Origin: Propioniciclava sp. MC1595
Lineage (GTDB): Bacteria; Actinomycetota; Actinomycetes; Propionibacteriales; Propionibacteriaceae
Length of the DNA stretch: 64,000 nucleotides
Direction of reading: 5' to 3'
NCBI RefSeq assembly: GCF_017569205.1
Contig: NZ_CP071870.1
Span: forward strand, 1,240,001-1,304,000
The number at the start of each line of letters is the position of its first letter. The first letter of the stretch is position 1. The notes under the pieces were generated by a model. That model worked only from the letters and a program-made list of their open reading frames with translations. It did not search any database and was not told where the DNA came from. Below, one piece after another: positions 11,622 to 16,804 of the stretch. The position numbers and the translations under genes are program-made.

Positions 11622-14183
11622 TCAGGTCGCTGGCTCGTCCACGACCGGGTCGATGTCGGCGGTGGTCAGCATGGGCGCGTCGATGCGCATCTTGTAGAAC
11701 GAGCGCCACATGAAGACCAGCGCCGCGATGAAGCTCGCGACCGCCAGCACGGTCACCAGCGTGTGCGCCTCGGAGTGGCGCAGGCTCACGCCGAGCTCGA
11801 CGGCCAGCAGGCCGAACAGGGTGGTGAACTTGATGACCGGGTTGAGGGCCACCGAGCTGGTGTCCTTGTAGGGGTCACCCACGGTGTCGCCGACGATCGA
11901 GGCGTCGTGCAGCGGCGTCCCCTTTGCGGCGAGGTCGACCTCGACGATCTTCTTGGCGTTGTCCCAGGCGCCACCGGCGTTGGCCATGAAGATCGCCTGG
12001 TAGAGCCCGATGATCGCGATCGAGACCAGGTAGCCGATGAAGAAGTACGGGTCGGTGAAGGCGAAGGCCAGGGTGGCGAAGAACACGCCCAGGAAGATGT
12101 TGAACATGCCCTTCTGGGCGTACTGGGTGCAGATCTCGACCACGCGCCGGGAGTCGGCCTCGGACGCCTTGGTGACCCCGTCGAGCTGGATGTTGTCGGC
12201 GATGAACCCGACCGCACGGAACGAGCCCGTCGTGACGGCCTGGATGGACGCCCCGGCGAACCAGTGGATGACGCCGCCGCCCATGATCAGGCCGAGCAGG
12301 AACGGCGCGTACAGCAGCGACAGCTTGTCGATGTTGGCCGTCATGCCCGAGGTCAGCAGCATCATGATCGAGAAGATCATCGTGGTGGCGCCGACGACCG
12401 CGGTGCCGATGAGCACGGGCTTGGCGGTGGCCTTGAAGGTGTTGCCCGCCCCGTCGTTGAGCTCGAGCAGGTGCTTGGCCCGCTCCCAGTCGGGGGTGAA
12501 GCCGAAGTCGTGTTCGAGCTCGTCGGAGATGCCGGGGAGGTCCTCGATCGTGGAGAGCTCGTAGATCGACTGGGCGTTGTCGGTGACCGGGCCGTAGGAG
12601 TCGACGGCGATGGTGACCGGGCCCATGGCGAGGAAGCCGAAGGCGACCAGGCCGAACGCGAACACGCCGGGGGCGACCATGAGGGCGTCGAGGCCCAGCA
12701 TCGACAGGAGGTAAGCGCCGGTCATCAGGGCGACGATGGACAGGCCCAGCCACAGTGCGGAGAAGTTGCCGGCCACGAGGCCCGACAGGATGTTCAGGGA
12801 CGCCCCGCCGCGCTGGGAGGACTTCACGACCTCCTCGACGTGCTTGCTCTTCACCGAGGTGAAGACCTTGACCACCTCGGGGATGAGCGCCCCGGCCAGG
12901 GTGCCGCACGACATGATCGCCGCGAGCTTCCACCACAGGGAGCCGTCGCCGAGGTCGGGGATGAGCAACCACGAGACCGCGAAGGTGGCGAGGATGGACA
13001 CCCCGGAGGTGATCCAGACCAGCTCGGTGAGGGGGCGCTCGAAGTCGATGTCGTCGGAGTGCGTGTGCTTGGCCCGCGTGATCGCCGAGCTGGCCGCGTA
13101 GCTGAGCAGCGAGGCCCCGATCATGGTGGCGCTCACGGTGAACAGCCACACCAGCAGCGTCGCCTGGGTGGCGGGCACCGCGTCGGCGCCCAGCATCTGG
13201 CCGCCCACTGCCAGCATGATGAAGGTGACCAGGGCCACGCTGGTGACGCCGTAGGTCTCGAAGCCGTCGGCCGACGGGCCGACCGAGTCGCCGGCGTTGT
13301 CGCCGGTGCAGTCGGCGATGACGCCGGGGTTGCGGGCGTCGTCCTCCTTGATCTTGAAGGCGATCTTCATCAGGTCGGAGCCGATGTCGGCGATCTTGGT
13401 GAAGATGCCGCCGGCGATGCGCAGGGCGCTGGCGCCGAGGGACTCGCCGATCGCGAAGCCGATGAAGCACGACCCCGCGATCTCGCCGGGCAGCACGAGC
13501 AGGATCAGCAGCAGGATGAGCAGCTCGAGGCTGATCAGCACCGTGCCGATGCTCATGCCGGCGCGCAGGGGGATGTGGTGCAGGTCGTACGGACGCCCCC
13601 GCAGGGAGGCGAAGGTGGTGCGGGAGTTCGCGAACGTGTTCACGCGGATGCCGAACCAGGCGATCCCGTAGGAGCCCGCCATGCCCAGGAGGCTGAAGGC
13701 CAGGATGATGAGCGACTGGCCCAGCGGCGTCCCGACGAGGAACTGGAAGTACACGAAGATGACCGCGGCGGTGAAGGCCCACAGGATCATCAGGAAGCGG
13801 CCCTGCTGGGTGAGGTAGGCCCGGCAGGTGGAGTAGATCAGCTCGGAGACCTCGCGCATGGCCGCGTGCACGGGCAGGCGGGACAGGCCGAGGAAGCTCC
13901 ACAGGCCGAAGCCGAGGCCGACCAGGCTCATCAGGACGCCGAACAGCAACAGCGTGCGCCCGTCGACCGCCCCACCGAAGAAGGTGGCCAGGGACAGGTC
14001 GGGCAGCCGAAGGTTCGCCTCGCCGCCCGGGGGCCGGGCCCCGTCGCCGGGCTGGGCCGCCACCGTGCAGCCCGTCAGGGCCAGCAGGGCCAGCAGGGAC
14101 AGCAGGGGCACCGCCCAGCGGGCGCGGCGAAGTGAAGAGTTACGGGCGCTGCTACAGCCCGGGAGGTGTTCTCTAGCGGTCAC
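11622..14183 (-). CDS. hppA: Membrane-bound H+-translocating pyrophosphatase, divergent subfamily, with lipobox (copy 1)
   Basis: Couples PPi hydrolysis to proton export. The 853-residue protein has about 16 membrane helices and all core motifs in divergent form: DIGSDL at 266-271, DDARNP at 281-286, DCTGDNAGD at 291-299, GPVTDNAQSIYEL near 531, DGAGNTFKA with Lys584, and GDTVGDPYKD near the C terminus. Lys at the GNTxKA position marks K+-independence. The pattern DCxGDNAGDSVGPSADGFETYGVT fits the divergent, Na+-regulated H+-PPase group known from Cellulomonas and Chlorobium rather than classical actinobacterial H+-PPases. The N terminus (residues 18-39) is a lipoprotein signal ending LTGC, then a Pro/Gly linker. 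The GTG start has AAGGGG upstream. Confidence 0.9.
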   Translation of the reverse strand: MTAREHLPGCSSARNSSLRRARWAVPLLSLLALLALTGCTVAAQPGDGARPPGGEANLRLPDLSLATFFGGAVDGRTLLLFGVLMSLVGLGFGLWSFLGLSRLPVHAAMREVSELIYSTCRAYLTQQGRFLMILWAFTAAVIFVYFQFLVGTPLGQSLIILAFSLLGMAGSYGIAWFGIRVNTFANSRTTFASLRGRPYDLHHIPLRAGMSIGTVLISLELLILLLILLVLPGEIAGSCFIGFAIGESLGASALRIAGGIFTKIADIGSDLMKIAFKIKEDDARNPGVIADCTGDNAGDSVGPSADGFETYGVTSVALVTFIMLAVGGQMLGADAVPATQATLLVWLFTVSATMIGASLLSYAASSAITRAKHTHSDDIDFERPLTELVWITSGVSILATFAVSWLLIPDLGDGSLWWKLAAIMSCGTLAGALIPEVVKVFTSVKSKHVEEVVKSSQRGGASLNILSGLVAGNFSALWLGLSIVALMTGAYLLSMLGLDALMVAPGVFAFGLVAFGFLAMGPVTIAVDSYGPVTDNAQSIYELSTIEDLPGISDELEHDFGFTPDWERAKHLLELNDGAGNTFKATAKPVLIGTAVVGATTMIFSIMMLLTSGMTANIDKLSLLYAPFLLGLIMGGGVIHWFAGASIQAVTTGSFRAVGFIADNIQLDGVTKASEADSRRVVEICTQYAQKGMFNIFLGVFFATLAFAFTDPYFFIGYLVSIAIIGLYQAIFMANAGGAWDNAKKIVEVDLAAKGTPLHDASIVGDTVGDPYKDTSSVALNPVIKFTTLFGLLAVELGVSLRHSEAHTLVTVLAVASFIAALVFMWRSFYKMRIDAPMLTTADIDPVVDEPAT

Positions 14184-16804: not shown

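Follow-up and report, generated by a model that had tools for sequence, protein, structure and literature searches.

Two tandem divergent H+-pyrophosphatases of Propioniciclava sp. MC1595 are probably made as lipoprotein precursors

Introduction

Can a multi-pass ion pump driven by pyrophosphate also be a lipoprotein? The question is raised by a 64,000-nucleotide stretch of the Propioniciclava sp. MC1595 genome (NCBI RefSeq assembly GCF_017569205.1, contig NZ_CP071870.1, forward-strand positions 1,240,001 to 1,304,000), hereafter the window, which carries two adjacent membrane pyrophosphatase (mPPase) genes on its (-) strand, each product of which opens with what looks like a lipoprotein signal. 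We observed the signal anatomy, its conservation, its absence from the canonical pumps examined, a signal peptidase II (LspA) in the genome, intact catalytic motifs, and the core fold. On this basis, we put at about 85% the probability that both proteins are catalytically intact, divergent H+-pumping mPPases made as lipoprotein precursors, with a lipid-anchored mature form. Lipidation, cleavage, the site where the N-terminal tail packs, and the role of that tail are what we infer from these observations.

Results

The two pumps and their core

Copy 1 (P0002; 14306..16804, (-) strand; 832 aa) is transcribed first and copy 2 (P0001; 11622..14183, (-) strand; 853 aa) second; the proteins are 74% identical, with predicted mature forms of 811 aa from Cys22 and 815 aa from Cys39, respectively. 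Both open reading frames (ORFs) matched Pfam H_PPase and the NCBIfam profile NF001950, the latter with 1337 and 1398 bits for the two copies against a cut-off of 826. Copy 1 also matched solved mPPase chains in the Protein Data Bank, and its AlphaFold model has the standard mPPase core. A genome search found no mPPases besides these two in the 3.43-Mb genome. Divergent and canonical mPPases gave bimodal phmmer scores, and in a FastTree tree built from 208 divergent rows and 2 canonical ones, a long starred branch separates the divergent rows from this two-row outgroup.

Lys561, in GNTFKATAK, aligns with the Lys of GNTTKATTKG in the solved structure 8b37, not with the plant pump motif GNTTAAIGKG. 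We take this position to be the marker of K+ independence (K+-dependent pumps have Ala) and Glu291 to be the 6.53-type position. Since Glu291, Lys561, the DNAGD motif, and the N, P, I, and K of NPVIK were invariant across 69 sequences, both copies probably function as K+-independent H+ pumps. Copy 2 is the more derived of the two, departing from the other sequences at 13 highly conserved positions where copy 1 does so at 1. Degeneration of copy 2 was considered and rejected, as the motifs inspected are intact despite the 13 changes.

The N-terminal signal and its conservation

Both proteins open with a basic n-region; an uncharged hydrophobic stretch and a lipobox come next, and a polar linker then leads on to GGEANxxLPDL. 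The predicted lipoprotein signal peptide of copy 1 (16742..16804, (-) strand; residues 1 to 21) consists of an RR n-region, an h-region, and LAG, and leads to lipobox Cys22 (LAGC; 16739..16741, (-) strand); the tail segment GGEANIHLPDL, conserved and predicted to be exported, spans residues 35 to 45 (16670..16702, (-) strand). The corresponding elements of copy 2, all on the (-) strand, are a predicted signal peptide at residues 1 to 38 (14070..14183), lipobox Cys39 (LTGC; 14067..14069), and GGEANLRLPDL at residues 53 to 63 (13995..14027). An earlier note on this DNA had described two adjacent same-strand mPPases of 853 and 832 residues, lipoboxes at Cys39 and Cys22 behind a basic region and a hydrophobic stretch, and a conserved GGEAN..LPDL segment, and we found each of these, with the same coordinates, lengths, and strand. 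Its assignment of the core motifs to the Na+-regulated, K+-independent subfamily stands as far as NF001950 and the Lys and Glu markers, which agree with K+ independence, are concerned; Na+ regulation of the window pumps we infer from subfamily membership alone.

The homologue set comprised 285 divergent ORFs scoring >1000, which were cut to 245 rows with unique cores: 154 from Actinobacteria, 63 from Acidobacteria, 20 from Gemmatimonadota, 6 from Planctomycetota, and 2 oddly labelled, the group label of an untitled row being that of the search which yielded it. Left out were 11 partial divergent ORFs (scores 350 to 1000) and, in the canonical set, duplicates (67 reduced to 64); the actinobacterial count does not include L092 (titled Acidimicrobiia) or L067 (titled Proteobacteria). 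A member was found in 141/197 genomes of the window's family, only part of which are in the row set, in 3/394 of the window's class, in 39/347 of the Cellulomonas order, and in 42/149, 16/61, and 11/119 of the phyla of Pyrinomonas, Gemmatimonas, and Phycisphaeraceae, respectively.

A lipobox was present in 128 of the 153 anchored unique actinobacterial rows by a relaxed pattern, which tolerates Cys at -4 or -3 and was devised after two rows had been missed by the strict one; the strict pattern gave 126. When the same zones were shuffled for 200 rounds with composition kept, lipobox rows averaged 5.9 of 153 and never exceeded 14, and none of the 64 canonical mPPases had a lipobox in a control zone that stops near helix 1 and not at GGEA, a segment missing from canonical pumps. 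Among the 128 lipobox rows, the n-region was net positive in 127, the uncharged run measured 12 to 20 residues (median 16), Leu stood at -3 in 122, and the tail after the Cys was net positive in just 1; Gly, Ala, or Ser at -1 in all 128 is imposed by the pattern's own rule. The Cys lay 7 to 19 residues (mode 15) before the Glu of GGEA, a distance that holds across divergent genera, and the linker after the Cys was variable among homologues. A twin-arginine (Tat) signal as the rule was rejected: RR occurred in 87 of these rows and a Tat-like pattern in only 7. The GGEA..LPDL segment itself was kept, with the anchor Glu in 240 of 243 rows and the Pro in 98%, and Glu37 and Pro43 of copy 1 were invariant in the 69 sequences. 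In the three rows without the Glu, the anchor had been placed a few residues off or wrongly (L265 was misanchored). For signal peptidase II, the genome gave two Peptidase_A8 matches above cut-off.

Orthologues had been expected to share the lipobox, and in the window's family they did so in 84 of the 85 distinct homologue rows sampled, in addition to both window copies. The lone exception, L159, has a broken frame with an LVGC lipobox readable in another. In that same-genus genome (G005), the break lies near the N terminus, at about 4400 to 5000, with LVGC and GGEAN in the other frame; L159 looks like either a pseudogene or an assembly error. The named homologues, being among the best 80 of 587 matches and hence close relatives, had a lipobox in 31 of 34 actinobacterial rows, including strains titled Cutibacterium and Cellulomonas fimi (L069), the latter having been singled out in advance. 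The expectation failed for most non-actinobacterial rows, which are signal peptidase I (SPase I)-like, and for the Cellulomonas order, as described below. Separately, L067, from a contig titled as a proteobacterial metagenome-assembled genome, has a lipobox PPase of actinobacterial type, placed with those of Actinotalea and Demequina, and is probably a mis-binned contig.

Other fates of the N terminus

The segment might instead be an uncleaved signal anchor, forming an extra transmembrane helix with the N terminus inside and the Cys incidental. The AlphaFold model of copy 1 has a helix at residues 7 to 20, though many signal peptides would give the same, and an inside N terminus would leave the core topology undisturbed. 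However, the confidence of this helix was low (block means of the predicted local distance difference test [pLDDT], 51 and 65), with disorder behind it (44); the tail, by contrast, was modelled with confidence, the mean pLDDT being 71 at residues 31 to 40 and 94 to 95 at residues 41 to 60. The L-[AST]-[GAS]-C type boxes in most actinobacterial rows and the A-x-A ends elsewhere favor a cleaved signal, and the whole segment is absent from 17 or 18 rows, unlike a structural helix. We consider a signal anchor unlikely. The chain of 8b37 aligns from model residue 60 onward (chain residue 6), and none of the matched mPPase chains covers the signal, lipobox, or tail part; the outer N-terminal side of the subfamily is therefore without structural coverage.

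The 18 rows without a signal (15 actinobacterial and 3 gemmatimonad) have a start codon in 17 cases; the remaining row, L043, has none before the anchor, and its frame is probably broken. In 16 of the 18, an ATG precedes the conserved Glu by 7 to 21 residues, a spacing that agrees with the one between Cys and Glu in the lipobox rows, and we therefore read the signal as removable, the signal-less proteins seeming to begin where the mature ones would. As controls, an ATG was found in that stretch in 4/128 lipobox rows and 26/93 SPase-I-like or hydrophobic rows, and any start codon in 40/128 and 55/93, respectively. The Cellulomonas-order rows L347 to L352, L263, L256, and L260 seemingly lost the signal and have an ATG 7 to 15 residues before the GGEA Glu.

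In other phyla, a hydrophobic segment at the same place ends in A-x-A in 51/63 acidobacterial, 14/20 gemmatimonad, and 3/6 planctomycete rows, and these segments look like signals of the SPase I type. Hydrophobic segments without A-x-A were counted in 10, 3, and 1 rows, respectively, by a test that is crude and undercounts, the AFAQ ends of L085 and L106 having been scored in this class. The strict rule gave ambiguous lipobox matches in 2 acidobacterial, 0 gemmatimonad, and 2 planctomycete rows (L058, L080, L081, and L086). It could then be asked whether the actinobacterial signal, too, is cut by SPase I or another protease and carries no lipid, as the SPase-I-like signals of these relatives and of 7 of 32 Cellulomonas-order rows would allow. 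Yet the Cys is kept in all but one of the sampled rows of the window's family while the linker that follows varies, and Leu at -3 with Gly, Ala, or Ser at -1 is what signal peptidase II (SPase II) prefers. We regard cleavage without a lipid as quite improbable. A chance Cys in a hydrophobic, low-complexity leader, or a misassigned start, can be dismissed by the shuffles, the canonical controls, and the fixed distance of the motif from GGEA in divergent genera, even though Ala, Leu, and Gly abound in high-GC leaders and start codons are ambiguous in single genomes.

Several points nonetheless weigh against lipoprotein precursors. A lipobox was found in only 11 of the 32 Cellulomonas-order rows (7 are SPase-I-like, 2 hydrophobic without A-x-A, and 12 without a signal), and the lipid is therefore presumably dispensable in some lineages. 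The stricter Gram-positive lipoprotein rule was satisfied by only 111 of the 153 actinobacterial rows (122 with Ser allowed at -1), and the relaxed pattern also fits 4/63 acidobacterial, 0/20 gemmatimonad, and 2/6 planctomycete rows. The patterns used follow PROSITE PS51257 and the Gram-positive rule. Finally, cleavage and lipidation are read from sequence patterns. Taken with these points, the mature enzyme in the window is still most likely a multi-pass pump anchored by a lipid at its outer N terminus. The subfamily as a whole appears to export an N-terminal tail, in most cases preceded by a signal that looks cleavable and is of the SPase II type in most Actinobacteria sampled, and the predicted exported tail, not the lipid, is its common denominator.

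History of the pair

On the tree, one starred clade of 83 holds all 81 rows labelled Acidobacteria, Gemmatimonadota, or Planctomycetota, together with L092 and the SPase-I-like L114. With strict coding of the actinobacterial rows, lipobox versus other required at least 10 changes; the order of the SPase I and SPase II types is not readable from the tree because the branch to the canonical outgroup is very long. Since each window copy groups with its counterpart copy in other genomes, the tandem pair seems to predate the genus members in which it occurs. Such pairs were found in the window, at L051/L156, L162, and L163, and probably at L157/L158 (two contigs of one genome); L337 is a separate tandem. 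The lipobox is kept in 12 of the 12 copies.

Two further arrangements were seen. At L090 (Pyrinomonas; G710:C8:611135-615643), the divergent mPPase is directly preceded on the same strand by a canonical one, a tandem of unlike subfamilies. The Phycisphaeraceae genome that carries L081 has another mPPase match (G713:C1:2390917-2393571), which is split into three parts inside a single 980-aa open frame, as an insertion would do.

Expression signals and neighbouring genes

Both copies start with GTG, and purine-rich stretches, read by eye, lie shortly upstream (AAAGGA for copy 1 and AAGGGG for copy 2). The 127-nt intergenic stretch between them had a fold z-score of -5.9 as a whole and contains a perfect-looking 17-bp hairpin (14248..14285, (-) strand) without a T run, at which a terminator scan gave no flag. 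The tandem loci L162 and L163 have a like hairpin at the same spot, and L051 a different one. The window hairpin is possibly a terminator or an attenuator, and the two copies may be separately terminated. A scan of 14100-17100 for sigma-70-type promoters found none. The pair sits between a block of CtaA and ABC-2 transporter genes (9199-11599) and a suf iron-sulphur assembly block (17032-20373): one flank has an ABC transporter pair and a CtaA/COX15 gene, and the other two SufB/D-type genes together with a regulator of the ArsR type, SufR-like to judge from its position.

Discussion

If the two pumps are lipoprotein precursors, their maturation would most likely proceed as follows. The Sec machinery would export the N terminus, a putative Lgt would attach diacylglycerol to Cys22 or Cys39, and LspA would then cut the signal off, leaving a multi-pass pump of the usual 16-helix mPPase fold, its outward-facing N terminus tethered to the outer leaflet. 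A Gly/Ala/Ser/Pro linker would join the lipid anchor to the GGEANxxLPDL tail, which may pack against the core from the outside. The signal would serve to translocate an extra tail of about 25 to 35 residues that is absent from solved mPPases, and the lipid would fix this tail at the membrane. A more specific proposal, which we offer tentatively and hold to be doubtful, is that the tail, tethered by its lipid in the outer leaflet at one end and docked on the core at the other, acts as an outer lid or strap to stabilise or gate the side where ions leave, and that its evolution explains why the subfamily requires a cleavable signal, missing from the canonical pumps examined, whose type (SPase I, SPase II, or none) switched several times.

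Should these pumps be lipoproteins, inhibitors of Lgt or LspA, such as globomycin, would also affect pyrophosphate-driven ion pumping in Actinobacteria; assay enzymes made in Escherichia coli may have been processed or misprocessed at the lipobox Cys unnoticed; and an unusually large multi-pass protein would join the lipoprotein class. The switching among SPase I, SPase II, and no signal on a conserved pump would moreover offer a natural experiment on what the lipid anchor contributes.

The divergent Na+-regulated H+-PPases are an already known subfamily (Luoto et al. 2015, as cited in PMC9408878, PMC6882861, and PMC8469034). The window pumps belong to the same profile family, NF001950, well above its cut-off. 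The portions of these three papers that were available mention no signal peptide or lipid anchor, whereas the window pumps have a conserved, predicted exported GGEA..LPDL tail behind a cleavable-looking signal. The K+-independent H+-PPase of Pyrobaculum aerophilum (8b37) shares their Lys and has nothing that matches the signal, lipobox, or tail.

Multi-pass bacterial lipoproteins are also known: YidC/SpoIIIJ with five spans and CtaC and QoxA with two (PMC13068155 and PMC4136701). These resemble the window pumps in having a lipoprotein signal and a predicted N-terminal lipid anchor ahead of transmembrane helices; they differ in having fewer spans and in not being driven by pyrophosphate. We know of no relation between them and mPPases. 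The protozoan H+-PPases of Toxoplasma and Trypanosoma have N-terminal targeting peptides, which serve eukaryotic secretory or vacuolar targeting and are not known to have a lipobox; they and the window pumps would both be mPPases with an added targeting signal at the N terminus.

The claim that a lipid-anchored, ion-pumping PPase is undescribed survives in a narrower form. No literature linking lipidation or a lipoprotein signal with mPPases was found among the matches listed, which covered open-access papers only, so that absence from print is not shown. Since multi-pass lipoproteins and the divergent mPPase subfamily are each known and no joint report was found, what would be new in the window pumps is the combination of the two.
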